36,760 nucleotides of DNA from Bryobacteraceae bacterium (lineage in GTDB: Bacteria; Acidobacteriota; Terriglobia; Bryobacterales; Bryobacteraceae): positions 1 to 36,760 of the forward strand of contig JASHOO010000424.1 in NCBI GenBank assembly GCA_030041035.1, written 5' to 3'. This document shows positions 4,912 through 22,973 of the stretch, one piece after another. The notes under the pieces were generated by a model that was not told the DNA's origin, did not search any database, and saw nothing but the letters and a program-made list of their open reading frames with translations. Both the position numbers and the translations under genes were made by a program. Every line of letters begins with the position of its first letter. The stretch's first letter is position 1.

Positions 4912-6393
4912 TCACCAGATGCCGATCAGCTTCCACCAGGCGAATCCGACCGTGGACCAGATGGCGAGGTTCACCAGCGACACCACGAAGCCGATACGCC
5001 ACCACTTCTGAAACGAGACGTAGCCGTGCGCGTAGAACATGGGCGAGGGCGTAGTGCCGTAGTTGGTTAGACCGGCGGCGAAGTTGGCGAAGCAGGCGAA
5101 GCTGAAAATGACCAGGCCGGCGGGGGCCTTTCTCGCGACCAAAAGCGCGGCGAACGGTGGAAACATAGCGAGCATGTGGGCCGTGATGCTGGCGAAGCCG
5201 TAGTGAGCGTAGAAATAGATCACCAGCGCGGCAGCGAGTACGACAACCCAGTTCGCTGTACCGAACATTCCGCCGACGCTGCGCGCGAACTCGCGGGTGA
5301 CTCCGGCATCATTGAGTGACTTGCCGAGCTGCAGCAGCCCGCCGTACCAGATGAAGATGTCCCATGCGGCGCGATCGCTGACGACATCGTTCCAGGTGAG
5401 GACGCCGGTAAGAAGGAGCGCAGCCGATCCGAGCAGCGCCGTCACGGTGATGTCCAGATGATGGAACGCCGAAGTGATCCAGAGTGCGCACACGGAGATG
5501 AAGATGCCGCCGGCGATTTTTTGGCTGCGGGCCGCAGGTCCCATGCGCTCCAACTCGCGGGCCGCAAATGTGGCGGCTTCGGGGGTTTTGCGGATGACTG
5601 GCGGATCCAAACGGTAAACGACCCATGGGACGACCGCGAGCGAGCAGAGGCCGGGCACGATCCCGGCGGCGAACCACAAAGCCCAGGTTACCGGATAGTG
5701 AAACATGTCGGCGGCCATCTTGGCCGCCAGCGGATTGCTGGCTTGCCCGGTGAAGAACATCGCAGCCGTAATGCAGATTCCCTGGTAGACGCCGGTAACG
5801 AGAAATGAGCCAACCAGGGCGGCGCTGGGGCCGGGAAGGGAACCGTAGAGTTCAGCGACCGAACGCACAATCGGCAGTACCACACCGCCGGAGCGCGCGC
5901 CATTCGAGGGGATGACCGAAGCAAGCACCATGTCGGTGGCGGACAGAGCGTAACAAACCCCGAGCGAGGTCTGCCCCACGGTGCGAATGAACAGTAGCGC
6001 GATGCGCCGCGCCAAGCCGGTCTTGATGAGTGCATTGGAGATGGTAAATGCGGCCATAACCAGCCAGACGGTGGGATCACCGTATCCGCCGAGCGCCTGC
6101 TGGATCGTAAGTCCGCCAAAAATGGATGCGAGGATAACGGCGATCAAGACCGCGGCGCCGCCGGGAATGGGACGGAGCATAAGCGCACCGATGGCCGCGA
6201 CGAAGATGCCAAGCAGACGCCATCCTGCGGGCGCGACCGATGCCGGCCGGGGCAGAAGAAATTGGATCGCCAGGTACAACGCGACCAGAACCAGGGCGCT
6301 CAAGATGCGGTGACGGGTGTCTGGCGAATCCGGTGCTGGCGTCGTGCTAGAGTCGCGGTCGGAGGATATCGTCGTCGAGTCCAAATAAGCCAT
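4912..6393 (-). CDS. DASS/SLC13-type dicarboxylate or anion transporter (CitT-like)
   Basis: A 493-residue inner-membrane transporter with a soluble N-terminal tail (about 25 residues) and about a dozen hydrophobic segments. Two re-entrant-loop motifs mark the CitT/TtdT/2-oxoglutarate-malate branch of the DASS family: IPSNGARSGG (canonical SNTAR-GG) and LTNYGTTPSPMFYAHGYV (canonical T-YGTGPAP). It ends with the family's WWK-G-W pattern. The start is the ATG at 6393; the open frame runs on to 6822 but that part overlaps the divergent FecR-domain gene and lacks transporter similarity. Substrates in the family are di- and tricarboxylates or sulfate; which applies here is not visible. The gene is upstream of and probably co-transcribed with the HAD phosphatase gene. 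Confidence 0.9.
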   Translation of the reverse strand: MAYLDSTTISSDRDSSTTPAPDSPDTRHRILSALVLVALYLAIQFLLPRPASVAPAGWRLLGIFVAAIGALMLRPIPGGAAVLIAVILASIFGGLTIQQALGGYGDPTVWLVMAAFTISNALIKTGLARRIALLFIRTVGQTSLGVCYALSATDMVLASVIPSNGARSGGVVLPIVRSVAELYGSLPGPSAALVGSFLVTGVYQGICITAAMFFTGQASNPLAAKMAADMFHYPVTWALWFAAGIVPGLCSLAVVPWVVYRLDPPVIRKTPEAATFAARELERMGPAARSQKIAGGIFISVCALWITSAFHHLDITVTALLGSAALLLTGVLTWNDVVSDRAAWDIFIWYGGLLQLGKSLNDAGVTREFARSVGGMFGTANWVVVLAAALVIYFYAHYGFASITAHMLAMFPPFAALLVARKAPAGLVIFSFACFANFAAGLTNYGTTPSPMFYAHGYVSFQKWWRIGFVVSLVNLAIWSTVGFAWWKLIGIW

Positions 6394-7510: not shown

Positions 7511-8680
7511 CTAAGTCATCCCCAACAGCGCATTTACCAGCACGGCGGCCATACCGATGGGGATCATGTATTTCCAGCCGATATTCATGAGCTGATCGTA
7601 GCGGAAGCGCGGGAAGGTGCCGCGGAACCAGACCAGCAGATAAATGATCACGGCGACCTTCAGCAGAAACCAGAACAAGCCGATCACGGCGTGATTCACC
7701 TGTGGCACCAGGAACACGAGGCCCGAGAGGATGAGCAGGAGCGCGACTAGTATGAGCACTTTCTGCTGAAGCGGATCGGGCAGGCGCTTGACGAGCAGGA
7801 AGCTGCCGGCCCCGGAGCCGAAGAACAAGAGGAACGGCAGGACGTAGTTAATGGGATCGAGCCATGCCACGCTGGGAAAGGGCCTGAGCCAGCCGCCCCA
7901 GAACAAGGTGACGGCGACGCTTGAAGCGACGAACATGTTGGCGTATTCAGCCAGGAAATAGAGCGCCCAGCGAAAGCCGCTGTATTCGGTGTGAAAGCCG
8001 GCCACCAGTTCTGATTCGGCTTCGGGAAGATCAAATGGAGCGCGATTGGTTTCGGCGGTAGCGGAAATCAGGTAGACGACGAATGGCACCAGCATGAAGC
8101 CATAGTTGGAAAAAGCGAACCAGACGCCGTGGGAAAGCTGGGCCTTTATGATCCCTTGCATGCTGAGGGTTCCGGCAACCATCAGGCCAGAAAGTAAGGC
8201 GAACGAAAGCGCCACTTCGTAGCTGACCAATTGCGCCGCACTGCGCAACGCGCCGAGCAGCGGATAGTGGCTGTTCGAAGCCCACCCGCCCAAGATGATT
8301 CCCAGAATTCCGACTGCCGACATAGCCATAATGACCAGGATGCCGACGTTGACATCGGCCACGTACAACAACTGGCTGAATGGCAGCACGGCGAACGAGG
8401 TGAGGGCAGTGAAGGTGGAGATGACGGGCGCCATCCAAAAGATCCACTGGTCGGCATCGGTGGGGATGATGTCTTCCTTGAGCATCAGCTTCAAAGCGTC
8501 GGCGATGGGTTGGAGCAGACCGTGCGGACCAACGCGCATGGGGCCGAGGCGGACCTGAAAATCGGCCAGCACCTTGCGCTCGACCAGCGTCAGATAGCCC
8601 GCCACCAGCGGGAACACCGCGATGATGACGATCGTGACCGCCAGCGGGATGAAGAGCGGACTTTGAAGGATGGTCTGCAT
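7511..8680 (-). CDS. nuoH: NADH-quinone oxidoreductase subunit H
   Basis: A 389-residue membrane subunit of complex I, which forms much of the quinone chamber and links the peripheral arm to the proton-pumping arm. Diagnostic sequences are ERKVLADFQVRLGPMRVGP near the N-terminus, GLLQPIADALKL, and the quinone-site loop FDLPEAESELVAGFHTEYSG. It has about eight hydrophobic segments and the usual family length with a modest C-terminal extension. It is the last gene of the cluster, one base after nuoN, whereas in most bacteria nuoH sits between nuoG and nuoI. Confidence 0.97.
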   Translation of the reverse strand: MQTILQSPLFIPLAVTIVIIAVFPLVAGYLTLVERKVLADFQVRLGPMRVGPHGLLQPIADALKLMLKEDIIPTDADQWIFWMAPVISTFTALTSFAVLPFSQLLYVADVNVGILVIMAMSAVGILGIILGGWASNSHYPLLGALRSAAQLVSYEVALSFALLSGLMVAGTLSMQGIIKAQLSHGVWFAFSNYGFMLVPFVVYLISATAETNRAPFDLPEAESELVAGFHTEYSGFRWALYFLAEYANMFVASSVAVTLFWGGWLRPFPSVAWLDPINYVLPFLLFFGSGAGSFLLVKRLPDPLQQKVLILVALLLILSGLVFLVPQVNHAVIGLFWFLLKVAVIIYLLVWFRGTFPRFRYDQLMNIGWKYMIPIGMAAVLVNALLGMT

Positions 8681-8681
8681 G

Positions 8682-10148
8682 CTATCTCAGGAATGAATTC
8701 TGGGCCAAGCGCAGCACCGGCTCGGGATAGACGCCAACCGCCAGTGTCAGCACGCCGGTGATGCCGAGCGCCACGCGCAATCCGAAGCTGGTAGCCAGGG
8801 GCGCTTTCTCGGTCAGTTCACCGACAAACATGGTTTTCACGATGCGGAAGTAATAGTAAATGGCCACGGCTACATAAAGAGTTGCGATCACCGCGAGGAG
8901 GTAGTGGTGCGTTTCAATGAGCGACAGGAAGATGTAGTACTTGCCGAGGAAGCCGGCGGTAGGCGGAATTCCGGCGAGCGAGAGCAGAAAGATGAGCATC
9001 AAGACGGCGTAGCCAGGGCTTCTGTACATCAGTCCGGCCATGTCGTCGACATCATCGCCAATGATATTTTTCCGCCGCAACGCGATTACCACGAGGAATG
9101 CGCCAAGATTCATGAAGGCGTAGACCATGACGTAAACCGCGATGCCCTGGATGCCGGTGTCATTACCAGCGATCAGGCCGAGCAGCATGTAGCCGGCATG
9201 GGAGATCGAGCTATAGGCCAGCAGGCGTTTGATGTTCGTTTGGCTGATGGCGGCGAGGTTGCCGATGGTCATGGTTAAAATCGCGACGGCAGCCAGCAGG
9301 GGCTCCCAGGCGTCACGGGCAGGTGCAAGCGGACCAAGGAAGATACGCAACAAAAATGCGAATGATGCGGCTTTCGAAGCCACCGAGAGATAAGCCGTGA
9401 TGGTGGTGGGTGCGCCTTCGTAAGCGTCGGGTGCCCACATATGGAACGGGGCCGCGGAAATCTTGAACAACAGGCCGACGGCGGTGGTAGTCATGGCCAA
9501 AAAGACGAGAGGATCCCAGGCCGGGCGGGCAGCGATGGCGGCGGCGACATCGGTGAGGCGTGTCGAACCGGCGAGGCCGTACATGATGGAGAAGCCATAG
9601 ACGAGAAAGCCGCTGGAAAACGCACCGAGCAGCAGATATTTGATGGCGGCTTCGTTGGAGCGCTTGTCGCCGCGCAAGAAACCGACCATCACATAGAAGC
9701 ACAGAGCCATGAGCTCGAGGCCGATGAAGAGCGTGACAAGATCGGTGCCGGCCGCGAGAAAGAACATGCCGCACTGCGCGAACAGTAGGAGGGCGTAGTA
9801 TTCGCCGTGATGCTCGCCCTCGATCTCGAGATAGTTATAGGACACGAGCGCCACGATGAGGGTGGCCAGCTCGAAGACCCAGTTGAAATACAGGGCGAAT
9901 CGGTCGATGGTGAGTGCACCGCTGAAGGCGATGATGGAGCTGTCGCCGCTGGTCGCAAGAAAGGCTTGCTGCCGGTACAATCCGACACCAGCGAAAATCA
10001 ATCCTGCAACGACGACGAGGGCAAAGTAACGCTTCTGCTTCGAGTTTGCAAACAAAAAATCAAAAACCAGAATCCAGCAGCCAAATAGCGCCAGGGTGAG
10101 GGCGGGAGTGAGGGCGAAAGCTTCGTTCGTGGAGTAGTATTGGCTCAT
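8682..10148 (-). CDS. nuoN: NADH-quinone oxidoreductase subunit N
   Basis: A 488-residue antiporter-like proton-pumping subunit of complex I with about 14 hydrophobic helices. Characteristic residues are visible: the TM5 glutamate in FIGLELMALC, the TM7 lysine in AIKYLLLGAFSSG, and the TM8 lysine in LLFKISAAPFHMWAPDAYEGAP, followed by the conserved LAAISQTNIKRLLAYSSISH. The start overlaps the nuoM stop by four bases and its stop is one base from the nuoH start, so all are translated from one message. Confidence 0.97.
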   Translation of the reverse strand: MSQYYSTNEAFALTPALTLALFGCWILVFDFLFANSKQKRYFALVVVAGLIFAGVGLYRQQAFLATSGDSSIIAFSGALTIDRFALYFNWVFELATLIVALVSYNYLEIEGEHHGEYYALLLFAQCGMFFLAAGTDLVTLFIGLELMALCFYVMVGFLRGDKRSNEAAIKYLLLGAFSSGFLVYGFSIMYGLAGSTRLTDVAAAIAARPAWDPLVFLAMTTTAVGLLFKISAAPFHMWAPDAYEGAPTTITAYLSVASKAASFAFLLRIFLGPLAPARDAWEPLLAAVAILTMTIGNLAAISQTNIKRLLAYSSISHAGYMLLGLIAGNDTGIQGIAVYVMVYAFMNLGAFLVVIALRRKNIIGDDVDDMAGLMYRSPGYAVLMLIFLLSLAGIPPTAGFLGKYYIFLSLIETHHYLLAVIATLYVAVAIYYYFRIVKTMFVGELTEKAPLATSFGLRVALGITGVLTLAVGVYPEPVLRLAQNSFLR

Positions 10149-11704
10149 TGCGCTGCTCCCGCCTCGACGGCTCGAGGCTTTGCTGACGCGACCCGCTGCG
10201 CGCCTCCCTGATAATAATCGGGACGCACGCGCTCCACGATTTGTTGGACTGGTTTATCGAGCAGATCAAAATAAGGCTTGGGGTAGATGCCGATCCAGAA
10301 GCCCCAGGCGATCAACGGCACGAAGACGACCAGCTCCCGGAGGCTGAGATCAGGAAGATGCAAATTGCGGCCATTGGTGACCTGACCGAGCATGGTGCGC
10401 TGGTAGAGCCACAGTAGGTACGCGGCGCCGAGGATCACCCCCATCACACTGAACGCCGCCCAGGCATGGCTGGCTTCAAACGCGCCTTGGAGAATAGCGA
10501 ACTCGCCGACGAATCCGTTCAACAGGGGAAGCCCAGCGGAGCTAAGCATGGCGATGGCGAAAACGGTGGCGAACTTCGGCATTACGTGTGCGAGGCCACC
10601 GTATTCAGCGATCTCTCGCGTGTGTCGGCGCTCGTAGATCACGCCGATGATCAAGAAGAGCATGCCGGTCGAGATGCCGTGGTTGACCTGCTGGAGCACA
10701 CTGCCGGCCAGACCGTTGGGATTCAGGGCAAAAATTCCGAGCGTGCAGAATCCAAGGTGACTGACTGAAGAGTAAGCCACCAGCTTTTTCCAATCCTGCT
10801 GCATCAGGCTCACCAGAGCGCCGTAAATGATGCCGATGATGGAGAGTACGGCGAGCACCTGCACGATGGTCTGATCCACCGAGGCCTTCGGCAGCAAGGG
10901 GAGTGAAAATCGGATGAAACCGTAAGTTCCCATTTTCAACAGCACGCTGGCCAGGATCACGGAGCCCGCGGTAGGAGCTTCGACGTGCGCATCCGGCAGC
11001 CAAGTGTGGAAGGGGAACATCGGAACTTTGATGGCGAAGCCGATGAAGAAGGACCAAAAGACCCACTGTTGCAGGCCGAGCGGGAGATCGAGCTTCATGA
11101 GCTCGGCGATCTCGAATGTGTAGGCGCCGAACTGCTGATGATATTGGAAATACAGTGTCAAGATGCCGAGAAGCATCAGGACTGAACCGGCTAGGGTGTA
11201 GAGGAAGAATTTGATCGCGGCATAGAGTTTTCGCGGGCCGCCCCACACACCGATGATGAAATACATCGGCACGAGCACCAGCTCCCAAAATACGTAGAAC
11301 AGAAAGAAATCCAGCGAGACGAAGACGCCGATCATTCCCGTTTGCAACAGCAGGAACATGGCGTAGTACTCTTTGACGCGTTCGTCGATGGCGTTCCAGG
11401 AACAGAGGATGGCCAGGAACCCGACGAGGGTGGTCAGCATGATCAGCAGCAGGCTGATGCCATCGATACCAATGTGAAAGTGCGCGCCGATGGAGGGAAT
11501 CCAGTCCGTGCTTTCCTGAAACTGGAATCCGGAGATACCTTTATCGAATCGCGAGACCAGCGGGAGCGAGATCAGAAATCCCACGAATCCCACCAGGTTG
11601 GCCCAGACTTTGATCAGATCTTTCTGCTTTCCGGGAATCAGCAGCAGGATGAGGAAGCCGGCGAGCGGTGTGAAGAGGACGATGCTGAGTAAGTGCTGAT
11701 CCAT
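10145..11704 (-). CDS. nuoM: NADH-quinone oxidoreductase subunit M
   Basis: A 519-residue antiporter-like subunit of complex I. The start is the ATG at 11704 (MDQHLLSIVLFTPL); the frame is open further upstream but there overlaps nuoL. Key features are the TM5 glutamate in YVFWELVLVPMYFIIGVWGG, the TM7 lysine in AAIKFFLYTLAGS, the TM8 region AIKVPMFPFHTWLPDAHVEAPT, and LMQQDWKKLVAYSSVSHLGF. Two bases separate it from nuoL. The C-terminus carries a basic tail of about 40 residues not usual in short NuoM proteins. Confidence 0.97.
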   Translation of the reverse strand: MDQHLLSIVLFTPLAGFLILLLIPGKQKDLIKVWANLVGFVGFLISLPLVSRFDKGISGFQFQESTDWIPSIGAHFHIGIDGISLLLIMLTTLVGFLAILCSWNAIDERVKEYYAMFLLLQTGMIGVFVSLDFFLFYVFWELVLVPMYFIIGVWGGPRKLYAAIKFFLYTLAGSVLMLLGILTLYFQYHQQFGAYTFEIAELMKLDLPLGLQQWVFWSFFIGFAIKVPMFPFHTWLPDAHVEAPTAGSVILASVLLKMGTYGFIRFSLPLLPKASVDQTIVQVLAVLSIIGIIYGALVSLMQQDWKKLVAYSSVSHLGFCTLGIFALNPNGLAGSVLQQVNHGISTGMLFLIIGVIYERRHTREIAEYGGLAHVMPKFATVFAIAMLSSAGLPLLNGFVGEFAILQGAFEASHAWAAFSVMGVILGAAYLLWLYQRTMLGQVTNGRNLHLPDLSLRELVVFVPLIAWGFWIGIYPKPYFDLLDKPVQQIVERVRPDYYQGGAQRVASAKPRAVEAGAAQ

Positions 11705-11706
11705 AG

Positions 11707-13905
11707 TTAACGCGCCAGGTAGTAACCGAAGAATGCCAGAGCGCCCACAACCACGAAGAGGGCATAGGCCTGGACGCGCCCGGTCTGGACGATGCGCACC
11801 GGGTACGACGACACCTTGACGAGCAGTGAGGTCAGGCGTACAGTGCCATCGACGATCCAGGTGTCCCACCAGATGGAGAACGACGAAGAAAAGCGCGTAA
11901 ACCATCCGGCGCCATTGACGCCGCCATCGATCACGTTGCGATCAAACGCTCCCAGTAGCGTGCCGCCGCCTTTGGCGAAGCCATTCACGAAGAGGAAATC
12001 GTAAATTTCGTCGACGTACCACTTGTTTGACAGAGTGCGATGAATGGGTCCGCACCGGGCTTCAATGGCGCCGGGAATCTCAGGGCGTATGTGATAACAA
12101 TAGCGGGCGATGCCGATGCCGATGAGCGCCAGGGCGATCGAGACGCCCATGAGAATTCCCTCGGTTGAGGCGTCGTGCGCGCCTTCTTTAACAGCTTCTA
12201 CAGCGGCAGAGGCAAAGGATGGCTCCAGCCACTGCTCGAATCCGCGGAACCAACCGGACATGCCCCAAAGTCTCGGCGTCCCGATCCAGCCGGCCAGGAC
12301 GCTGCCTATTGCCAAGAGCGTGAGCGGGACGGTCATGGACGCGGGCGATTCGTGGATGTGGGCTTCGATTTCAGGCGCCACGCGAGACCTGCCGTAGAAC
12401 GTCATGTGCATCAGCCGCCACATATAGAACGCCGTCAGTCCAGCGGTCAGCAGGCCAACCACGTAGAGTGCGTTCGAGCCTTGCTGTGAACTGTAGGCCT
12501 GCCAGAGGATTTCGTCCTTCGAGAAGAAGCCTGCGAAGCCGGGAATGCCGGCAATGGCGAGCGCCGCGACGAACATGGTCCAGTGCGTGATTGGGATCTT
12601 GTCTTTCAGTCCGCCCATACGGCGCATGTCCTGCTCCCCGCTGACGGCGTGGATGACGGACCCGGATCCGAGGAAGAGCAGAGCCTTGAAGAAAGCGTGG
12701 GTGAACAGATGGAAGATGGCTACCCAATATGCGCCGACACCAAGCGCCAGGAACATGTAGCCGAGCTGGCTCACTGTCGAGTAAGCGAGCACGCGCTTGA
12801 TGTCGTTCTGTACGAGAGCAATCGTTGCCGCGAGAATGGCTGTGAACGCGCCGACCGAAGCTACGATGGTGGAGGTATGCGGCGTTAACTGGTAAAGTGC
12901 TGCCGACCGCGCCACCATGTACACGCCAGCCGTCACCATAGTGGCCGCGTGGATGAGTGCGGATACGGGCGTGGGACCTTCCATGGCGTCCGGCAACCAG
13001 ACGTATAGAGGAATCTGCGCTGATTTTCCGGTTGCGCCGATGAACAAAAGCAGGGCCATTGTGCTCAACACGCCGAACCCGGCCGTCTCGGCCCGAAAAT
13101 TACCGCTTCCCAGGATCTGTCTTACATCAACGAACTTGACCGTCCCGAGCACGCTGAACATCAACAGCATGCCGAGGATGAATCCAGCGTCACCCACTCG
13201 ATTTACGACAAATGCTTTCTTTCCTGCGTCGCCCGCTGACTTCTTATGAAAGTAGAAGCCGATCAGCAGGTAACTGCATAGGCCCACGCCTTCCCAGCCA
13301 ACGAACATCAACGCGTAGTTGTTGGCCAGCACCAGCATGAGCATGAAAAAAACGAACAGGTTTAGATAGCCGAAGAAACGGTAGTAGCCGTTGTCGTGAG
13401 CCATGTAGCCGGTGGAGTAGACGTGAATTAAGAATCCAATACCGGTGACCACCAGAATCATGACGGAGCTGAGGGGGTCGAGCAGAAAGCCCCAATCGGC
13501 GGAAAACGTCGCCAGGCGTCCGCCGGCCATGTGGAACGGCAGCCCGGCGAGCCAGGTGAACTGGATCACCTCGTGCGATCGTTCGGGAACATTCGCGAGT
13601 TGCAGGACGGCGCCAGCCGACCAGATCAAGGACAGCAACACCATGCCCGGGCAGAGAAGGCTCACGACGGTCTTGAGGCCGCCGCCGTGATGATCGTGCC
13701 CGGTGACATGTTCGTGCGCGTGTTCGTGGGTATGGCCGTGGTGGTGATGCGCGGCTTCATGACCATCGTGAGTGAGTTCGACGCCGGGAGCCACGGCTAC
13801 GTCGGATGCCGGCTGCGGATCGAGTTTACTGCCGAACAGCAGCATAACAACCGCGCCGAATAGCGGAAAAAGTGGAATCAGCCAGATCTGGTCGAGAAAA
13901 TTCAT
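11707..13905 (-). CDS. nuoL: NADH-quinone oxidoreductase subunit L with His-rich insert
   Basis: A 732-residue distal antiporter-like subunit of complex I; E. coli NuoL is about 610 residues. Diagnostic segments are FVGWEGVGLCSYLLIGFY (TM5 glutamate), GKSAQIPLYVWLPDAMEGPT (TM8), and VQNDIKRVLAYSTVSQLGYM. The C-terminal part contains the long lateral-helix region and final transmembrane helix (YYLAR end). The unusual feature is a loop after the first membrane segment: residues 46-73 contain 14 histidines interspersed with Gly, Glu and Thr. It starts four bases downstream of nuoK. Confidence 0.97.
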   Translation of the reverse strand: MNFLDQIWLIPLFPLFGAVVMLLFGSKLDPQPASDVAVAPGVELTHDGHEAAHHHHGHTHEHAHEHVTGHDHHGGGLKTVVSLLCPGMVLLSLIWSAGAVLQLANVPERSHEVIQFTWLAGLPFHMAGGRLATFSADWGFLLDPLSSVMILVVTGIGFLIHVYSTGYMAHDNGYYRFFGYLNLFVFFMLMLVLANNYALMFVGWEGVGLCSYLLIGFYFHKKSAGDAGKKAFVVNRVGDAGFILGMLLMFSVLGTVKFVDVRQILGSGNFRAETAGFGVLSTMALLLFIGATGKSAQIPLYVWLPDAMEGPTPVSALIHAATMVTAGVYMVARSAALYQLTPHTSTIVASVGAFTAILAATIALVQNDIKRVLAYSTVSQLGYMFLALGVGAYWVAIFHLFTHAFFKALLFLGSGSVIHAVSGEQDMRRMGGLKDKIPITHWTMFVAALAIAGIPGFAGFFSKDEILWQAYSSQQGSNALYVVGLLTAGLTAFYMWRLMHMTFYGRSRVAPEIEAHIHESPASMTVPLTLLAIGSVLAGWIGTPRLWGMSGWFRGFEQWLEPSFASAAVEAVKEGAHDASTEGILMGVSIALALIGIGIARYCYHIRPEIPGAIEARCGPIHRTLSNKWYVDEIYDFLFVNGFAKGGGTLLGAFDRNVIDGGVNGAGWFTRFSSSFSIWWDTWIVDGTVRLTSLLVKVSSYPVRIVQTGRVQAYALFVVVGALAFFGYYLAR

Positions 13906-13909
13906 GCCG

Positions 13910-14218
13910 TCACCACTTCAGTAAGTCCACCTCGTCTGCCAGCACGGTTTCTTTGTTGCGGAAAAGGGCAATCAGAATGCCCAGCCCGACGGCTGCTTCA
14001 GCCACGGCGTCTGTAATGACGAAAATGGCGAAGATCTGGCCGTTCACGTTGTGCAAATTGTGCGAGAAGGCGATGAGGTTGATGTTCACTGCGTTGAGGA
14101 TCAGCTCGATGGACATGAGCACGATGACGATGTTGCGCCGGGTGAGCACACCGATTGTGCCAATGAGCAGCAGTGCGGCGCTTAACGCAATGTAGTGAGT
14201 GGTGGTGATGGGGCCCAT
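13910..14218 (-). CDS. nuoK: NADH-quinone oxidoreductase subunit K
   Basis: A 102-residue, three-helix membrane subunit of complex I (homologue of ND4L). The two buried glutamates of the proton path are present: Glu38 in [11 protein letters not shown] and Glu74 in [13 protein letters not shown], spaced as in E. coli NuoK (36 and 72). The length is the family's normal length. Two bases separate it from nuoJ and four from nuoL. Confidence 0.97.
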
Positions 14219-14220
14219 GT

Positions 14221-14733
14221 TCAGATCCTTTTTTTCGCCATCACGACCGATCCGACCACGGCTACCAACAGCAGCACGGAGGCGATCTCAAACGGCAACA
14301 GATACTGGCGGAACAGCACGTCAGCGATCTGCTCGGTATTGCCGCCTGCATTCGCCACGGCGGCAACCGGCGGCCGGGCCATGCTGAACGCGCTCGCGCC
14401 CTTGCGCACGAAGTAAGCGATCTCGACTCCCACCGCCGTGACGCAGAGCAGTGCGATCCACCATTGGCGGTTGAACCGCCGCTGTTTGGCGGCCTGGTCC
14501 AGATTCACCAGCATAATTACAAACAGAAAAAGCACCATGATGCCGCCCACGTACAGAACAATCTGGACGGCAAACAGAAATTCGGCCTGTTGCAGCAGAT
14601 ACAAGCCGGCCACGCCAATCAGGGAAACGATGAGGCTGATGGCGCTATGGACGGCGTTGCGACGCGTGACCGTTAAGATCGCACCTCCCAGCACCAGTGT
14701 GGCGAACAAGTAGAAGAACAGCGCGTCCATCAT
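14221..14733 (-). CDS. nuoJ: NADH-quinone oxidoreductase subunit J
   Basis: A 170-residue membrane subunit of complex I (ND6 homologue) with five hydrophobic segments. Typical motifs are [24 protein letters not shown] and [22 protein letters not shown]; the latter includes the TM3 pi-bulge region ([14 protein letters not shown]). Two adjacent ATGs are possible starts (14733 and 14730). It sits 19 bases downstream of nuoI and two bases upstream of nuoK. Confidence 0.96.
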
Positions 14734-14752
14734 TGGCAGCCCGCTCTCCAGG

Positions 14753-15208
14753 TCAACATTTGTATGGGGTGGGCTTCGGGCCTTCCTCGAGCATCTGCCG
14801 GTCCCAGATCCAGCCTTCCCGCGTGTAGCTGGCCAGTTCGAAGTCCTGCGTCAGCTCGAGCGCATCTACCGGGCAGGCGTCTTCGCACAGGCCGCAGAAC
14901 ATGCACCGCGACAGGTCGTAAGTAAAGGTGGTGAGCTCTTTGCGCCGTGTCTGCTCGTTGCGTTCGCTGCCCACCACGATCAGATTTTCCGGGCAAGCCA
15001 GCGCGCAAAGGTTGCAGGCGATGCACAGAGTCTCGCCATTGTCCGGGTTGATGTTCAGGCGCGGCGCACCACGATAGCGCTCGGCTACTTTGGGGCGCTC
15101 GGCGGGATACTGCTCGGTGTAAATGTTCTTGGGATTCTGATTGCGAAATGTTACCCAGAGGCCCTGAAACAGGTCGACCAGGAAAATTGTCCTAAAAAAT
15201 TTTCCCAT
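14753..15208 (-). CDS. nuoI: NADH-quinone oxidoreductase subunit I, 2x[4Fe-4S] ferredoxin
   Basis: A 151-residue peripheral-arm subunit carrying clusters N6a and N6b. Two complete CxxCxxCxxxCP motifs are visible: Cys62, 65, 68 and 72 (CIACNLCALACP) and Cys102, 105, 108 and 112 (CMFCGLCEDACP). The N-terminal amphipathic helix (MGKFFRTIFLVDLFQGL) lies on the membrane in known structures. It directly follows nuoD by five bases; nuoE, nuoF, nuoG and nuoH, which normally lie between them, are missing here. Confidence 0.97.
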   Translation of the reverse strand: MGKFFRTIFLVDLFQGLWVTFRNQNPKNIYTEQYPAERPKVAERYRGAPRLNINPDNGETLCIACNLCALACPENLIVVGSERNEQTRRKELTTFTYDLSRCMFCGLCEDACPVDALELTQDFELASYTREGWIWDRQMLEEGPKPTPYKC

Positions 15209-15213
15209 AGGTT

Positions 15214-16323
15214 CTATCGATCCACTTCCCCTAACACAATATCTAATGTTCCAATAATCGCGACCACGTCCGCCACTAATCCCCCCCGCACCATGCGATC
15301 GAGCGCCTGGAGATTCACGAACGAGGGCGGGCGGACGCGCATTCGATAAGGCTGCGTGGAATTGTCACTCACGACGAAGTATCCCAGTTCGCCCTTCGGT
15401 GCTTCGATGGACACGTACACTTCGCCCGTGGCCGGCTTGATTACCTTCGGAGTTTTGCCGATAGGACCTGCGGGAATTCTGTCCACTGCCTGCCGGATGA
15501 TGCGGACCGATTGCCGCATCTCCTGCATCCGCACGATATAACGGTCGTAGGTATCGCCGTTTTCGCCAGTGGGGACGTCAAAATCGTACTGCTCGTAACC
15601 GGAATAAGGCTGAGCTTTGCGCAAATCCCATTTCACGCCTGCAGCGCGCAGCACCGGGCCGGTGACGCCGAATTCCTTGCACTCATCGCCGGTTAGAATG
15701 CCCACGCCTTTGAGCCGTGCCACCCAGATACGGTTGTTGGTAAGGAGTTCCTCGTACTCATCCACCTTCGGCAGGAACATGTCGCAGAAAGCTTTCACCT
15801 GCTGTTCGAAGCCGTCGTACAGCTCGTATTGCAGGCCGCCGACGCGGAAAGCGTGCGTGGTAAGCCGGGCACCGCAGTAGTTCTCGAAAATCTTGAGCAC
15901 TTCCTCGCGCTCGCGGAAGCAGTAGAAGACCGGGGTAATGGCACCGATGTCGAGTGCATGCGTGCCCAGCCAAAGAAGGTGGCTCGCGATGCGGTTCAGC
16001 TCCGTTAGGATCACCCTCGTGACCTGGGCACGGGGCGGCGCCTCAATGTTGAGTAGTTTCTCTACGGCAAGGCAATAGCCGAGGCCGTTTGAGACCGCGG
16101 CGACGTAGTCCATGCGGTCCACGTAGGGCGCGAACTGCTGGTAGGTGCGATTCTCGCCGATCTTCTCCACGCCGCGGTGCAGATAACCGATCACGCACTC
16201 CGTGCCGATGACCTTTTCACCATCGAGCTTCAGGATGACGCGCAGCACTCCGTGCGTTGAGGGGTGCTGCGGCCCCATGTTGAGGACCAATTCCGTGGAG
16301 TCGAGAAAAGTGGTTTCCGGCAT
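15214..16323 (-). CDS. nuoD: NADH-quinone oxidoreductase subunit D
   Basis: A 369-residue peripheral-arm subunit (49-kDa homologue) that shapes the quinone site with NuoB and NuoH. The quinone-site loop [14 protein letters not shown] has the key histidine (His20 here), and [27 protein letters not shown] is the conserved core. The C-terminus ends LGEVDR, the usual family end. It is separate from nuoC, not fused as in E. coli. Six bases separate it from nuoC. Confidence 0.97.
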
Positions 16324-16329
16324 CGATGG

Positions 16330-16977
16330 TTATTGGCCGCTTTCGATCCCCAGGTTCTCCCGGACCCAACGGTTGTCCTGCTGGATAATAGACATCTCTT
16401 TGCGCAACGGGAACCCTTGCCATTCCTCCGGCAGCAGGATACGCCGCATGTCGGGGTGCCCTGCGAACTGGATGCCGAACATGTCGAACACTTCGCGCTC
16501 CAACCAGTTGGCGCCAGTATGCACGGGCACAGCGCTCCGAGGCTGCGCGGCGTCAGTAATCATGGTCTTGATACGAACACGCTCGTTTCGCCGAAAGCTG
16601 TAGAGAATGTACACGAGGTCGAAGCGCTCGGCGCGGTTCGGATAATCGACCGCGGTGATGTCGACCAGATAATCGAAGTCGGCTTCAAGCTTCAAGAACT
16701 CGAGAACGGGGATAACCGCTTCTGGTTGGACGACCGCGAAGTTCTGACCAAGATAGCTCGAACAGGCCGTGAGCTGATCGCCAAAGCGCTCCTTGAGTTG
16801 GTTTGGAAGCTCGCCTTCCCAAGCTGTGGCCGCCATGGGCGGCGGCGGTTTCGGGGCCGCGTGTGCCGGAGGCTTGGCAGCAGCCGGCTTCGGAGCGTCC
16901 TTTTGTTTAGGAGGTTCGGAAACCCCGCCCGAAGCGGGTGGCGGCGCGGAGCCCTCGGCGTTTTGCTCGTCTGCCAT
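16330..16977 (-). CDS. nuoC: NADH-quinone oxidoreductase subunit C with Pro/Ala-rich N-terminal extension
   Basis: A 215-residue peripheral-arm subunit (30-kDa homologue). The start is the ATG at 16977 (MADEQNAEGS); the open frame continues upstream through the promoter region but that part is not protein-like. The diagnostic C-terminal block is LEREVFDMFGIQFAGHPDMRRILLPEEWQGFPLRKE. Residues about 1-50 are a low-complexity Pro/Ala/Lys-rich tail not found in most NuoC proteins. It is the first gene of the cluster; no nuoA or nuoB precedes it, and the next gene upstream is the divergent Rieske gene. Confidence 0.96.
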   Translation of the reverse strand: MADEQNAEGSAPPPASGGVSEPPKQKDAPKPAAAKPPAHAAPKPPPPMAATAWEGELPNQLKERFGDQLTACSSYLGQNFAVVQPEAVIPVLEFLKLEADFDYLVDITAVDYPNRAERFDLVYILYSFRRNERVRIKTMITDAAQPRSAVPVHTGANWLEREVFDMFGIQFAGHPDMRRILLPEEWQGFPLRKEMSIIQQDNRWVRENLGIESGQ

Positions 16978-17004
16978 CCGGTGTTCCGTGTGAAGATCCC
17001 TACG

Positions 17005-17031
17005 ATTAGCACAGCGTCCTTGGCGAGTCAA
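17005..17031 (-). promoter_or_regulatory. Candidate sigma-70 promoter for the nuo cluster
   Basis: On the minus strand, TTGACT (17026-17031) is followed after 15 bases by GCTAAT (17005-17010). The -35 element is close to consensus, the -10 matches four of six positions, and the spacer is two bases short of the optimum. A transcript would start about 20 bases before the nuoC ATG. Seen by eye only. Confidence 0.35.
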
Positions 17032-17086
17032 ATAGGACGCGCATACACCCGCTTGGCGCCCACCGGAGTATCCCGGAAAGGCGGTA

Positions 17087-17114
17087 TTGCAAATCCGTTC
17101 CAGGGGTGTACAAT
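17087..17114 (+). promoter_or_regulatory. Candidate sigma-70 promoter for the Rieske/cytochrome operon
   Basis: TTGCAA (17087-17092), a 16-base spacer, and TACAAT (17109-17114) make a good sigma-70-like promoter on the plus strand. Transcription would start near 17121, giving a 5' leader of about 240 bases before the Rieske ATG. The leader is long, so a closer second promoter is possible, but I found none as good. Confidence 0.45.
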
Positions 17115-17333
17115 AATCGGTCGATACAAAAAACGATACGAGGCTGCCGGGGAGGTGGGGACTGAACCGGTTGGGCGGGAGAGCAGAATACGGGCTTTCG
17201 CAACGTCTGTTTATAAGTGCAGTACGATTTACTACATCAGGCTTTCCATAACCTACATAACGAAGCCTGCTGCTTTTGCCACTCATCCACCCTGTTTCTC
17301 TGGAGCCGCGGTGTCCACTTATTCCAGAAGGGG

Positions 17334-17350
17334 ACCGGGCACATCCCGGT
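17334..17350 (+). other. Short hairpin next to the Rieske ribosome binding site
   Basis: ACCGGG (17334-17339) and CCCGGT (17345-17350) form a perfect six-base-pair stem with a five-base loop; two G-U pairs could extend it. It ends three bases before the likely ribosome binding site AGGG (17353-17356). It could modulate translation or be incidental. Confidence 0.4.
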
Positions 17351-17362
17351 TTAGGGCACGAC

Positions 17363-17959
17363 ATGGCTACCCTCGAAACGCCTCCGGGCGCGCATGCGCC
17401 GGAAACCAAACCCAATCCTAAACCCAGCTTAGCTGATGCACTCAAAAAGATTTTCACCAGCGACGATCCCGACCCTGAGCGCATAATCGCGCGCCGCCGG
17501 CGCTTCGTCATGGCGGGCATTCTAGGTTTCCTGGGCGTAAATTTCCTGATGTTCCTCCGGTTCTTTTTTCCGCGGGCGCTTTACGAGCCAAAGACCAGAT
17601 TTCTGATCGGCTATCCCTCCGATTTCGGTTACGGAGTCGATACCAAGTTCCAGAACACGCACCGCATCTGGGTGGTGCGCAACACGGAGGGCATCTTTGT
17701 GATTTCTGCGGTCTGCACGCACCTCGGCTGCACGCCTGACTGGAAGCCGGCCGAGAACAAGTTCAAATGCCCGTGTCACGGCTCGGGTTACGATCCCGAG
17801 GGCATCAACTTCGAAGGGCCGGCGCCGCGCCCCATGGACCGTGCGCACGTGGAACTGACCCCCGAAGGGCAGATTGAAGTGGATCTCAGCCACCTCTACC
17901 GGTGGCCCAAAGGAGAGCGCGATGAATTCAACGACCCCGGCGCGATCCTCCACGTTTAA
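17363..17959 (+). CDS. Rieske [2Fe-2S] protein of a cytochrome b complex
   Basis: A 198-residue membrane-anchored iron-sulfur protein that takes the first electron from quinol in a cytochrome bc/b6f-type complex. The start is the ATG at 17363 behind AGGG. A polar N-terminal tail (1-45) is followed by one membrane anchor (about 47-70) and a periplasmic Rieske fold. Cluster ligands are Cys118 and His120 (CTHLGC) and Cys136 and His139 (CPCHGS); Cys123 and Cys138 would form the stabilising disulfide. The two boxes are separated by the usual 15 residues. It is the first gene of a nine-gene operon and is followed after 17 bases by cytochrome b. Confidence 0.96.
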
Positions 17960-17976
17960 CAATCCGGAGACAAACC

Positions 17977-18912
17977 ATGGCTGAAGGAAATGGAAGCAAG
18001 GGAACGGGCGGCAACGGAGCCGGCGGTTCTGGCCAGAACGGCGGCAAGAAGAGCCCGGTCAGCGTGCTGGTGGAAGGCGCCAAAGCAGTCGGAGCGCAGG
18101 CCGCTGAAGAGATCAAGGCACTCCAACAGCCCGAGAAGACCGATGTGTGGAAGTCCGTGCTGCGGGTCAAGCACGATGAGACCCCGCGCAGCCGTGCACT
18201 GGGTGTTCTCAGCAACGTCTTTCTGCACCTGCATCCGGCGAAGATCAACCGCGATGCTGTAGCCTACAGCTACACCTGGGGCATGGGCGGTATGACGTTC
18301 TACGTTTACATCACGCTGGTGTTCACGGGAACGCTGTTAATGTTCTACTACCACCCTTCGAAGGTCGTGGCCTTCCGCGACATTTTGTACCTGGAGCATG
18401 ACGTGCCTTTCGGCAAGCTGCTGCGCAACATGCACCGCTGGGGCGCGCACCTGATGGTCATCATGGTGGAGCTGCACATGTTCCGCGTGTTCCTGACGGG
18501 ATCGTACAAAAAGCCGCGGCAGTTCAACTGGGTGGTGGGCGTGATTCTCCTGGTGCTGACTTTGCTGCTGAGCTTCACCGGGTATCTGCTGCCTGACGAT
18601 CAGCTCGGCTTCTGGGCCGTCACCGTGGGAACCAACATGGCGCGCGCCACCCCGCTTTTAGGCCACGACGGGCCGTTCGGACATCAGTTCGGCATGACCC
18701 CCTTTAACGATGTCCGATTTGGATTGCTGGGAGGCTCCATCGTCGATTCGAACGCGCTGCTGCGCGCTTACATCTGGCACTGCGTGGCCATCCCCATCAT
18801 TGCCTCGGCCTTCATGGTGGTGCACTTCTGGCGCGTGCGGAAGGACGGCGGCATCTCCGGACCTGCGCCCGTGCAGCTCGAGAGCGAGATCAAAGAGCCG
18901 CGAAAACTCTAG
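17977..18912 (+). CDS. Cytochrome b, N-terminal (b6-like) half
   Basis: A 311-residue diheme cytochrome b corresponding to cytochrome b6 or the N-terminal half of cytochrome b. The first about 90 residues are a polar Gly-rich, then charged extension, starting MAEGNGSKG. Heme ligand pairs are His153/His167 (13 residues between) and His268/His283 (14 between); the 14-residue spacing is the b6-type signature. The region equivalent to the cytochrome b6 heme c(i) Cys35 reads TWGMGG, with no Cys, so covalent heme c(i) attachment is not expected. [21 protein letters not shown] and [15 protein letters not shown] align readily with b6. The stop is 12 bases before the subunit IV-like gene. Confidence 0.95.
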
Positions 18913-18924
18913 GGAGAAAGCGCA

Positions 18925-19860
18925 ATGGATTTCCATCAACTCTGGAGCATCTTCAGCACACCGGACAATGTCCCCATCGTGCTGCTCATGATCGTGGTGC
19001 CGTTTTACACCTGGTACGGCCTGCGGCAGGCCTTTGCCAACGACAAGTTGATCGGGGAACTCGAGGCAAATCCCGCCCTGGCCAAGACGCACCATCGCAA
19101 GACACAACCCTGGAAACCGGGCTGGGTCAAGGAAGTGCACGTTTGGCCGTATCTGCTGCGTATCGAGTTTCTGGCAGCCATCATTGTGACCCTCATTCTG
19201 ATGGTGTGGTCGATCACGCTGAATGCGCCGCTCGAAGAGCCCTCCAACCCAACCCTGACTATGAATCCCGCCAAGGCGCCCTGGTACTTCCTCGGGTTGC
19301 AGGAGATGCTGGTGTACTTCGATCCCTGGATCGCCGGCGTGATGATGCCAAGCCTCATCATTGTCGGCCTGATGGTGATCCCCTATATCGACGAGAACCC
19401 GCTCGGCAACGGCTATTACACCTACAAGCAGCGCAAATTCGCCATCTGGACTTTTATTTTCGGTTTCATCATTTTGTGGGTCACCATGATTGTTATCGGC
19501 ACGCTGATCCGCGGCCCCGGCTGGATGTGGTTCTGGCCCGGCACTACCTGGGACCACAATCGCCTGGAGTTCACGGTGAACCGCGATCTGCCGGATGTTT
19601 TCGGAATCAAGGGCCGGATCGCGAAAATTATTTTTGGTGCGATTGTAGTGGGCATTTACGGCGTGGTGGCGGCTATCGGCATTCACAAGCTGATGAACGT
19701 GACGTCGTTCGCCAAGAAGATTTACAAGCGCATGAGCCTGCTTCAGGTGGCCACCATGCAGTTGTTCCTGATCTGCATGCTGGCGCTGCCCATCAAGATG
19801 ATCGCGCGCCTGCTATTCCGCATCAAGTACGTTTGGGTGACGCCCTGGTTTAACGTATGA
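18925..19860 (+). CDS. Cytochrome b C-terminal half, subunit IV-like, with C-terminal extension
   Basis: A 311-residue membrane protein equivalent to cytochrome b6f subunit IV (about 160 residues), so it is nearly twice as long. The quinol-site motif PEWY of the family is APWY here (residues 118-121, in NPAKAPWYFLGLQEMLVYFDPW), lacking the glutamate. The core has a first hydrophobic segment near residues 15-33 and further ones at about 77-97, 132-152 and 173-195. An extra C-terminal part (about 230-311) carries two more hydrophobic segments. It overlaps the octaheme cytochrome gene by ATGA. Together with the previous gene it makes a split cytochrome b, as in b6f complexes and many menaquinol-oxidising bacteria. 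Confidence 0.93.
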   Translation: MDFHQLWSIFSTPDNVPIVLLMIVVPFYTWYGLRQAFANDKLIGELEANPALAKTHHRKTQPWKPGWVKEVHVWPYLLRIEFLAAIIVTLILMVWSITLNAPLEEPSNPTLTMNPAKAPWYFLGLQEMLVYFDPWIAGVMMPSLIIVGLMVIPYIDENPLGNGYYTYKQRKFAIWTFIFGFIILWVTMIVIGTLIRGPGWMWFWPGTTWDHNRLEFTVNRDLPDVFGIKGRIAKIIFGAIVVGIYGVVAAIGIHKLMNVTSFAKKIYKRMSLLQVATMQLFLICMLALPIKMIARLLFRIKYVWVTPWFNV

Positions 19861-22800
19861 GCGACCAACCGCGACAGGACCAAGATCAAGACCCGGTGGT
19901 CAATTCTTCGCTGAGCCGCGCCCTCTTTATTTGGTCGGCTTTGGCGTTGCTCTCGCTCGGCTGGGGGCTCTACGACGAGATCTACGGCATCCGGCCTTGG
20001 AAAACCTATGAGAGCCGGTTCGTTACGCTGTATACGCATTATCTGCGGAGCGTCCGGCCCCATGAAACAGCCTTCGAGAAGCAAATCAAGGCCGAGCCCG
20101 ACTACCAGAAACTCGACCACGAGGCGGAGGCCGCGCGCCTGGCGGTTGCCGATAAGGTCAAAGCGATTGACTTCGAAGTGACCCAGGTGCTGGTGCCCCA
20201 GACCCTGGCGCTCAACGATCCGTTCCAGGAAGTGCGCAGCCACATCGGCTCATTGACCTATCAGATTGAAACTACCGATAGTGAGAGCTCGAAGGAATCG
20301 AAGCGGCGCGAGATCGCCGAGATTCAGAAGGAGGTGCGCCAGGTAAAGCTGCCGCTGCCAGACGGCTCGACGAAAACCGTATCCTACACGTTCGGGCAGA
20401 TGGACCACGACCTCACCGCCTGGAAAGCGAGAAAGGCGGAGATACTACAGCAACGGGTGGAACTGCTTAAGCCTTACACCGAACTGGCCGCCGAGCGCGA
20501 CCAGTATCTCTCCGACCGCATCGCCGACGTGAGCTCCGCCACTTTGACCGGCCTCGTGAACAAGATGCAGGACTTCGACATCCGGATCATCCAGATTCAT
20601 ATCAAGGACATTGACTTGGTTGATCGCTGCGAATCCTGCCATCTCGGGACCCGCGAGCCCGTCACGCTGACCAAGGCGGCCATGGGAGGCGAGGAGGTTT
20701 ACGTCAGCCATCCCGAAAAGGAACTCTTGAAGATTCACGATCCCGAGAAATTCGGCTGCACGCCTTGCCACGGTGGCAACGGCGTGGCGGTGGATTCGAT
20801 CGAGAAAGCGCACGGATTGAACGAACACTGGCTGTGGCCGCTCTATACGCGCGCCAACTTTGACGCCGGTTGCCAGCAGTGCCACGTGAAGGAAATCGTC
20901 ACCGAGATGGCGGATACGCTGAATGCGGGGCGCGAAACCTTCCGCCGGCGCGGCTGCATGGGCTGCCATCGGTACGAGGGTTTCGACCGCGAACCCGACG
21001 AGATGACCGCGGTCACGCAACAGATCCGCCAGCTCGAGCAGCAAAAGGCCGAATGGACGCGTGAGATCGGCTTCACCACCGACAAAGCCGATAAGACGCG
21101 CAGCAACGAGGAAGCCGAGCGGCTCTATCAGCACGCCAACGATTTGAAAGTTCGCATTACCGGACTGGATGCCCAGATCGAGCAGGCTGATATGCGCTCA
21201 AGCGACCTGATTAAAGAAGTGAAGAAGGTCGGACCCAGCCTCAAAGAAGTCCGCATGAAGATGCACAAGGAGTGGATTCCGGTCTGGCTGGAGGATCCAC
21301 ACAAGTGGCGGCCCGGAACAAAAATGCCCACGTTCCGTCTGGATCAGGAGGAGATCCATGCCATCGCCGCATTCATCTGGCAGTCGGGCGCAACGGGCAA
21401 CTTGCCGTCGCAGCCACCAGGCGACCCCGTGAAAGGGAAAGAAGCTTTTGAGACCCGCGGCTGTATGGCCTGCCATTCGATGGGAGAAGGTAGCGGCCGC
21501 CAGGGTGGGGACTTTGCCGCCAACCTGAGCCGCGTGGGCGAGAAGGACAACTATGACTATCTCGTGCGGTGGATTCACAATCCACGAGAGCGCACGCTGC
21601 CCTACTGCCCGTTCGAGAAGCGAGACCTGACGGAGGAAGACTATAAGAGGAAGGGCCTGCCGTTCGTCTTCGACATGGATCACGACAAGTGCCCCAATGA
21701 CGGCCACCAACTGCAGGTCGAGCAGATGACTCCCATGCCCAGTTTGCGCCTCAGCATCGAGGAAGCACGCGATATCGCCAGCTACCTGATGACGCGCAAG
21801 CATGAAGGAGCAACCTATGCTGCCGCCGGCTACCTGGATGATCCGAAACTCAAGGCGCGTGGCCTGTTTCTGGTTCGCTATTACGGCTGCGCCGCTTGCC
21901 ACGAGATTGCGGGCCTGGAGGAAGAGCAACGCATCGGCACCGAGCTGACCAAAGAGGGTTCCAAGCCGATCGAGCGCTTGGATTTCGCCCTGCTCGGGCA
22001 CGAAGCCGAACGCGAGGGCTGGTATACGCATAAGGGCTTCTTCGAGCACAAGCTTGAAAATCCGGCCGTGTATGACCAGGGCAAGGAGAAGCCGAACAAG
22101 CTCGACCGGCTGAAGATGCCGAACTTCAACCTCTCGAAGCCGGAGATCGATCAGGTCACGACTTTCCTGCTCGGTTCGGTGGATTCCGCATTGCCCGAGC
22201 GTTACCAGTTCAACCCTACCGATCAGCGCCAGGACATCATTGAAGGCTGGTGGGTGATTCGCAAATACAACTGCATGGGCTGCCACCAGGTGCATGTCGG
22301 TCAGACCACGGTTTTCATGACATTGCCCCGTTATCAGGATCCCGACTGGAAGGATCAGAAGCCGCCTAGCCTCATTGGCGAGGGTGCACGCGTCAATCCG
22401 CAGTGGCTGATGCGCTTCCTGTCCAATCCGTCGTTGAACGATACCGATACAAACCGCGACGGCGTGCGACAATATCTCAAAGCCCGCATGCCAACTTTCT
22501 ACTTCTCCAGCGGAGAGATCCAGAAATTGGTGCGCTTCTTTGCAGCCATGTCGTACCAGGCGTCGCCTTACATCGCACCCAAAATGGAAGTGGTGACCGA
22601 CCAGGAGCGCACCATGGCGCGACAGTTGTTCTCGAGCGAAGGCGCGCCGTGCCTGAAATGTCACATGACCGGCGATGCGAAGCATGATGCACACGCCACC
22701 GCCCCCAACTTCTTGATAGCCCGGGAAAGACTCAAGGCCGGCTGGACCGAGCGCTGGATTGTGCATCCCGAAATGATGCAGCCCGGCACGGCGATGCCGT

Positions 22801-22973
22801 CGGGCCTGTTCCGCCGGGATGGAGACCGCTGGATCTTTGCCGGGCCGACGCCCGCCAGTTTCCAGCATTACACCGGCGATCACGCCGATCTGCTGGTGCG
22901 TTACATGTTCCAGTTCACTCCGGACGAGCTGAATCGCCTGCGTGTCAGTGCTGGCTCGGGAGCCGGACGTTGA
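19857..22973 (+). CDS. Membrane-anchored octaheme cytochrome c, 1038 residues
   Basis: A large c-type cytochrome with eight CxxCH heme sites at Cys258, 301, 339, 367, 536, 678, 806 and 932. Residues about 20-43 are one hydrophobic anchor without a cleavage site; residues about 75-250 are charged and helical or coiled-coil. Hemes 1-3 lie close together and lack nearby Met ligands. Hemes 4-8 each look like class I cytochrome c domains, with later Met ligands Met490, 627, 754, 878 and 980 (in KMPTF, PMPSL, KMPNF, RMPTF and AMPSG), most followed by a typical C-terminal helix. Heme 4's domain contains a coiled-coil insertion (about 380-475). Its place directly after the split cytochrome b, overlapping by four bases, suggests it replaces cytochrome c1 or f as the electron exit. 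Confidence 0.93.
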   Translation: MSDQPRQDQDQDPVVNSSLSRALFIWSALALLSLGWGLYDEIYGIRPWKTYESRFVTLYTHYLRSVRPHETAFEKQIKAEPDYQKLDHEAEAARLAVADKVKAIDFEVTQVLVPQTLALNDPFQEVRSHIGSLTYQIETTDSESSKESKRREIAEIQKEVRQVKLPLPDGSTKTVSYTFGQMDHDLTAWKARKAEILQQRVELLKPYTELAAERDQYLSDRIADVSSATLTGLVNKMQDFDIRIIQIHIKDIDLVDRCESCHLGTREPVTLTKAAMGGEEVYVSHPEKELLKIHDPEKFGCTPCHGGNGVAVDSIEKAHGLNEHWLWPLYTRANFDAGCQQCHVKEIVTEMADTLNAGRETFRRRGCMGCHRYEGFDREPDEMTAVTQQIRQLEQQKAEWTREIGFTTDKADKTRSNEEAERLYQHANDLKVRITGLDAQIEQADMRSSDLIKEVKKVGPSLKEVRMKMHKEWIPVWLEDPHKWRPGTKMPTFRLDQEEIHAIAAFIWQSGATGNLPSQPPGDPVKGKEAFETRGCMACHSMGEGSGRQGGDFAANLSRVGEKDNYDYLVRWIHNPRERTLPYCPFEKRDLTEEDYKRKGLPFVFDMDHDKCPNDGHQLQVEQMTPMPSLRLSIEEARDIASYLMTRKHEGATYAAAGYLDDPKLKARGLFLVRYYGCAACHEIAGLEEEQRIGTELTKEGSKPIERLDFALLGHEAEREGWYTHKGFFEHKLENPAVYDQGKEKPNKLDRLKMPNFNLSKPEIDQVTTFLLGSVDSALPERYQFNPTDQRQDIIEGWWVIRKYNCMGCHQVHVGQTTVFMTLPRYQDPDWKDQKPPSLIGEGARVNPQWLMRFLSNPSLNDTDTNRDGVRQYLKARMPTFYFSSGEIQKLVRFFAAMSYQASPYIAPKMEVVTDQERTMARQLFSSEGAPCLKCHMTGDAKHDAHATAPNFLIARERLKAGWTERWIVHPEMMQPGTAMPSGLFRRDGDRWIFAGPTPASFQHYTGDHADLLVRYMFQFTPDELNRLRVSAGSGAGR

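Follow-up and report, generated by a model that had tools for sequence, protein, structure and literature searches.

A histidine-rich TM1-TM2 loop in NuoL of a Bryobacteraceae bacterium and its possible role as a proton-collecting antenna of complex I

The nuoL locus and its histidine-rich stretch

The DNA analyzed here, hereafter the window, is a stretch of 36,760 nucleotides from a Bryobacteraceae genome. Its complex I cluster occupies 7511-17520 on the minus strand in the order C-D-I-J-K-L-M-N-H, with nuoH last; the C, D, L, M/N-type and H products were checked by Pfam, and the other members were named by eye from the list of open reading frames. Inspection of the same list by eye revealed no nuoA, nuoB, nuoE, nuoF or nuoG in this cluster; elsewhere in the genome, nuoF was matched twice, on contigs C403 and C526. 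Divergent from the cluster, at 17276-22973 on the plus strand, are genes for a Rieske protein, a split cytochrome b (two 311-residue subunits) and a 1038-residue protein with cytochrome c and multihaem-type domains, a set that looks like an alternative complex III.

The nuoL product scored 726.5 bits against NCBIfam TIGR01974 (NuoL), for which the cut-off is 407.5. A Pfam scan returned PF00361 and PF00662, only complex I/Mrp proton-antiporter families, and detected no ZIP or cation-efflux domain in the protein. The AlphaFold2 model, computed from an alignment of 51 NuoLs, reached a pLDDT of 85.3 and a pTM of 0.83, and the best 50 Foldseek matches listed for it were antiporter-like subunits from structures of complex I or NDH, with chain labels that were nearly all L, F or 5 and TM-scores by query of 0.63-0.76. 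The protein is a member of the NuoL/ND5 family; a short TM1-TM2 loop is no defining feature of that family, and the membership stands.

Translation bore out the original prediction of a segment with 14 histidines in 28 residues, exactly at 13687-13770. The stretch, HDGHEAAHHHHGHTHEHAHEHVTGHDHH, comprises 14 His, 3 Gly, 3 Glu, 3 Ala, 2 Asp, 2 Thr and 1 Val. At a background of 2.7% His, taken from the remainder of loop-bearing NuoLs outside the loop, the binomial probability of at least 14 His in 28 residues is 3e-15, a crude figure for a stretch that was chosen for its His. Six alternating His codons were found at three sites in the 6.85-Mb genome, namely the NuoL loop, a 71-residue His-rich open reading frame (ORF) and one spurious-looking frame, and the reversed pattern at none. 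The features discussed below are collected in Table 1.

Table 1. Features of the window NuoL, with positions in the window
Feature	Residues	Position	Strand	Basis
nuoL, NADH-quinone oxidoreductase subunit L	732 aa	11707..13905	-	TIGR01974; PF00361, PF00662; fold match
Transmembrane helix 1	9-28	13822..13881	-	AlphaFold2, block pLDDT 90 or more; hydropathy peak
Conserved lead-in of TM1-TM2 loop, LDPQPASDVAVAPGVE	28-43	13777..13824	-	conservation in relatives
Expanded TM1-TM2 loop, predicted disordered	29-75	13681..13821	-	pLDDT; missing from most homologues
Histidine-rich stretch, 14 His in 28	46-73	13687..13770	-	translation
Transmembrane helix 2	76-103	13597..13680	-	AlphaFold2 model
Beta-hairpin between TM2 and TM3	111-142	13480..13575	-	model strands 111-125, 131-142
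TM13-TM14 loop with near-invariant H516-x-H518-E-S-P	504-521	12343..12396	-	alignment of 51 rows

Layout and membrane side of the TM1-TM2 loop

The loop that carries the stretch measures 47 residues in the window protein, compared with the short basic turn of canonical NuoL. In the AlphaFold2 model, pLDDT stays below 50 across residues 37-74, and the TM1-TM2 loop is therefore predicted to be disordered. The stretch had been placed right after the first membrane segment; it does lie between helices 1 and 2, but the His-free residues 28-43 separate it from helix 1, whose end is near residue 28. In contrast to the His part, which shows no residue-by-residue conservation, this lead-in is conserved among relatives. 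An LDPQ-like signature in the lead-in marks the loop-bearing Bryobacterales NuoLs, and its VAVAPGVE part is present in most Solibacteraceae-like ones.

The side of the membrane, for which the original prediction had called for a topology analysis, was read from the distribution of basic residues and from the position of the hairpin. Among the 51 NuoLs, Lys and Arg per residue amounted to 0.15-0.17 in the odd-numbered loops TM1-2, TM5-6, TM9-10 and TM11-12 and to 0.09 in TM3-4 and TM13-14, with none in TM7-8, and to 0.00-0.09 in the even-numbered loops. The short TM1-TM2 loops of 268 homologues carry on average 2.95 Lys and Arg and 0.34 Asp and Glu. The beta-hairpins of Mrp and complex I are assigned to the periplasmic side in a study of Mrp (PMC7419157). 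Because Lys and Arg gather in the odd-numbered loops and a hairpin of this periplasmic type comes after TM2, we infer with good support that the His loop lies on the cytoplasmic, proton-uptake side.

Distribution of expanded TM1-TM2 loops

NuoL sequences were collected from 40 relatives together with the window's own genome, 80 named genome contigs, 297 genomes of the window's phylum and 150 of its order, as well as from 148 genomes in the phylum to which the deltaproteobacterial MAG G452 belongs and 198 in that of the 'Ignavibacteriae' MAG G455. The phylum of G454 was represented by two genomes and that of G456 by the same Acidobacteriota genomes again, so that neither broadened the sample, and the genome survey did not extend to Pseudomonadota, Cyanobacteriota or further phyla. 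DNA was read for the best matches of each search only (the loci returned plus 140 stretches). The 407 loci read yielded 337 usable, non-redundant NuoL N-termini after removal of 50 duplicates, 15 rows in which the N-terminus was short or truncated (loopless NuoLs in several cases) and 5 with low scores, 70 rows altogether. Long His-rich loops were present in 48 of 78 sequences from relatives and order, 11 of 77 from the named contigs, 5 of 84 from the phylum sample, 4 of 47 from the phylum of G452, 0 of 49 from the phylum of G455 and neither of the last 2 of the 337 N-termini, which come from the phylum of G454; the first two of these sets are enriched in close kin of the query, and the fractions per source are no prevalences.

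Three or more His occurred in 68 of the 69 expanded TM1-TM2 loops versus none of the 268 short ones, of which 13 contained any His at all. The sole expanded loop below this number (L203) has 13 loop residues and no His. The short basic loop of these 268 among 337 sequences, together with the absence of an insertion at this place from the five solved NuoL/ND5 chains aligned, upholds the earlier statement that such a loop is not part of canonical NuoL. After subtraction of 5 helix residues, the 68 His-rich loops are about 17-72 residues long. They comprise 53 Bryobacterales NuoLs of the window's type with an LDPQ-like flank, 7 around G452 in a clade of deltaproteobacterial MAGs with an ERPLLL-like flank, two other acidobacterial clades of 3 (L120, L125 and L063) and 4 members (L114, L368, L372 and L282), and a single sequence, L204 (G383:C64), which is the other NuoL paralogue in a Bryobacterales genome and has a loop of 40 residues, 13 of them His. 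The remaining copies read of that other paralogue have no loop, and the L204 loop is apparently an independent case, suited to a study of origin.

A loop confined to this strain and of random length in close relatives had been named as evidence against a meaningful feature. A strain-specific oddity was ruled out by the 53 Bryobacterales NuoLs that share the loop, while the length does vary widely among close relatives, with the His content kept. Trees of 102 rows and of all 337 each required 11 state changes, 4 of which were forced by strongly supported branches in the former; such counts cannot separate gains from losses. Loop losses are likely within Bryobacterales, because loopless members exist there. 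At least five lineages that stand apart on the trees carry His-rich expansions, and the differences between their flanking sequences suggest that the five groups had separate origins.

The conserved lead-in raises the question of a docking or assembly role, in which the LDPQ...VAVAPGVE segment and the loop would be the contact site for a lipid surface, a second respiratory complex or some other partner protein. The conservation of the lead-in next to a variable His part would fit such a role, as would the split cytochrome b, Rieske protein and large multihaem-type cytochrome that adjoin the complex I genes. However, the model has low confidence for most of this segment (mean pLDDT per block of 53, falling to 40 from residue 31 onward), and the segment is missing in the other His-loop lineages, whose flanks are of the ERPLLL type and others. 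We consider docking improbable.

Composition, selection and drift

The expanded loops contain 16.9% His, 7.7% Asp, 5.2% Glu, 12.8% Gly and 0.1% Cys, compared with 2.7% His elsewhere in these proteins. His content is tied to the reading frame, at 16.0% in frame versus 0.7% and 1.8% in the two alternatives and 3.3% once the bases are shuffled, and 38 of the 68 loops exceeded all 200 of their own base shuffles in His. In H-x-H pairs, both His codons were identical in 122 of 206 cases (0.59, with 0.57 expected), a match so close to expectation that recent copying or repeat slippage is not the source of the His. For the window loop itself, recent slippage was ruled out by a repeat finder, which returned two minor runs of 3-4-bp units and no 6-bp repeat. 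Loops L194 and L041 contain imperfect tandem DNA repeats of 18 and 24 bp, and duplication contributes in these two.

Comparison of the His part with the next 200 codons gave pN/pS values of 0.10 versus 0.11 in a genus of six genomes and 0.11 versus 0.12 in one of three. In genus g25 (ten genomes), where the loop is poor in His, the values were 0.65 versus 0.18, which speaks against tight constraint on the His part. Among 244 full-length proteins, expanded cytoplasmic loops held 21.6% His in TM1-2 (43 rows) and 16.9% in TM13-14 (11 rows; 17.2% where unexpanded), whereas expanded periplasmic loops held 4.5% in TM2-3 (21 rows), 3.6% in TM6-7 (3 rows) and 7.9% in TM14-15 (23 rows; 8.7% where unexpanded).

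These data bear on the possibility of a tolerated low-complexity expansion, in which the TM1-TM2 turn would accept disorder, and a bias of tolerance toward uncharged to acidic, flexible and soluble residues, with occasional duplication, would leave a functionless His-rich text. The spread of loop lengths (17 to 72 residues in the 68 loops), the repeats in L194 and L041, the loopless paralogues and relatives, and the drift in genus g25 would all be expected of such a process. It accounts poorly for the His-richness of 68 of 69 expansions across five lineages, for the frame-specific His, for the synonymous drift in two genera and for the much lower His content of periplasmic-loop expansions in the same proteins. 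The neutral expansion that had been offered as one option thus fits poorly with the separate lineages and with synonymous His-codon drift in two of three genera, and better with the third; we regard idle drift as rather unlikely, though it ranks third among the readings. We infer with good support that selection probably acts on loop composition, with His content kept while length and sequence drift.

Comparison with other histidine-rich segments

His-rich loops are familiar from ZIP and CDF zinc transporters, where they are cytoplasmic, and from HypB and SlyD, as disordered H-x repeats with Asp, Glu, Gly and Ser. The likeness to such metal-binding loops that had been pointed out holds for make-up alone (His with Asp, Glu, Gly and Ser, 0.1% Cys), and the window NuoL contains no domain of these proteins.

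Closer relatives are found within complex I itself. Cyanobacterial NdhF1, the NuoL homologue of NDH-1L, has like the window NuoL a native, solvent-exposed His-rich segment; in T. elongatus NdhF1 (6hum chain F) the run lies in the TM13-TM14 loop before HESP, whereas in the window protein it lies in TM1-TM2. Native cyanobacterial NDH-1L has been isolated via the His-rich area of NdhF1, according to two papers (PMC4131877, PMC6992706), one of which names Ni affinity chromatography. On our reading, this Ni-binding area would be the TM13-TM14 loop. Binding to a Ni column is experimental for the native NdhF1 complex, whereas the window loop is known from its sequence. NuoL of Paracoccus denitrificans (8qby chain L) likewise carries a short His-rich run in the TM13-TM14 loop, GDHHAHDHAHESP, and, unlike the window NuoL, has no TM1-TM2 insertion in the profile alignment. 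His-rich segments in NuoL homologues are already known; no description of a His-rich TM1-TM2 loop of NuoL was found in open PMC papers.

By helix count, the TM13-TM14 loop lies on the same side of the membrane as the His-rich TM1-TM2 loop. In the 51-row alignment, H516 and H518 are present in 90% or more, and E519 and P521 are invariant. With 89 of the 337 rows unusable for this comparison, at least one His was found in the TM13-TM14 loop of all 248 usable homologues, and 12 of 15 expanded loops there had 4 or more. In the window protein this loop, YGRSRVAPEIEAHIHESP, contains 2 His and lacks an NdhF1-type His-rich run. A His-rich TM13-14 loop accompanied a long TM1-2 loop in 1 of 63 NuoLs, compared with 33 of 185 others. 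Mutual exclusion of the two was considered on this basis (Fisher p 0.0005) and rejected, as independent pairs on the tree give no support.

The comparison with NdhF1 bears on metal binding, in which the (H-x)n stretch would bind Zn, Ni, Co or Cu on the cytoplasmic face and thereby shield the proton inlet from inhibitory metal, sense metal or store it. The composition of the loops, the Ni-column binding of the native NdhF1 complex and the free-standing 71-residue His-rich ORF in the same genome are consistent with such a role. Affinity-column binding, however, attests capacity rather than function, the ligand spacing is not conserved as length and order drift, and the choice of NuoL, and of these two loops, is left without a reason. 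We consider metal binding a possible explanation, if not a probable one.

A proton-collecting antenna as the favored explanation

How the antiporter-like subunits of complex I obtain their protons from the cytoplasm, and what limits this supply, is a matter of debate. Our first choice, with a probability of roughly 0.35, metal binding being a close rival, is that the TM1-TM2 loop serves as a local proton-collecting and buffering antenna. Among the proton-pumping subunits NuoL is the most distal, and the His stretch is the variable portion of its predicted disordered, probably cytoplasmic loop, in which a long acid/His segment (His with Asp, Glu, Gly and Ser) replaces the short basic turn. Its carboxylates and imidazoles would titrate around pH 6-7 and, net negative at cytoplasmic pH, could take protons from the bulk and hand them to the pump inlet. 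Such a function would depend solely on how densely titratable groups are packed, so that drift in sequence and length could be tolerated while His is kept.

With textbook pKa values, the calculated charge of the window loop changes from -6.3 at pH 7.5 to +5.0 at pH 5.5. Over the same range an average long loop shifts from -2.8 to +3.0, and the charge of short loops remains at about +1.8. An antenna would need an uptake-side surface that is both negative and titratable, and we count this shift in its favor; for Mrp, a relative of complex I, a negative uptake-side surface was proposed to gather protons, by a similar argument (PMC7419157). Against an antenna, there are loopless NuoLs, which presumably still pump, and in some Bryobacterales the loop was either lost or never present. 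The second NuoL of the same genome (G000:C343), 57% identical to the window NuoL over the matched part, has no loop, and the loop is therefore not needed for every complex I of the cell. Binding of Ni or Zn by the loop in vitro would be expected, and would not by itself separate an antenna from metal binding, because any such peptide would be expected to bind.

A broader and more doubtful extension is that NuoL in general carries a titratable antenna on its cytoplasmic face, in which a core of H-x-H-E-S-P is supplemented independently in many lineages by His/acid-rich disorder in TM13-TM14 or TM1-TM2, tuning the proton feed of the distal pump (or a metal or pH response). If so, complex I would have an evolvable proton-supply element that structures have missed because it is disordered. 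As a recurrent titratable loop on the uptake side of one pump subunit, the TM1-TM2 loop is a well-defined target for deletion or grafting; should it bind metal instead, complex I would be tied to metal stress, and if it does nothing, it would caution that a strongly biased, recurrent sequence can be idle.

Further histidine-rich sequences

Several other His-rich sequences were encountered. Long TM13-TM14 expansions are present in L068, L100, L118, L145, L066 and L072, several of them His-rich (up to 11 His in 53 residues), and that of L100 is an APSH(P/L) repeat. The TM14-TM15 loop, predicted to be periplasmic (residues 543-578, about 12172-12279 on the minus strand), is variable in length and holds 8-9% His across homologues; His enrichment is therefore not strictly one-sided. 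A search of the flanks for His-rich ORFs gave 66 matches; those listed, 30 in number, resemble translations in a wrong frame or of the antisense strand and were left aside. The 71-residue ORF, located near 6200-6300 on the minus strand of G000:C504 (L151 and L153), consists largely of His, Glu, Asp and Lys and is the only other convincing site in the genome with six alternating His codons; its composition is reminiscent of small His-rich metal-storage proteins.
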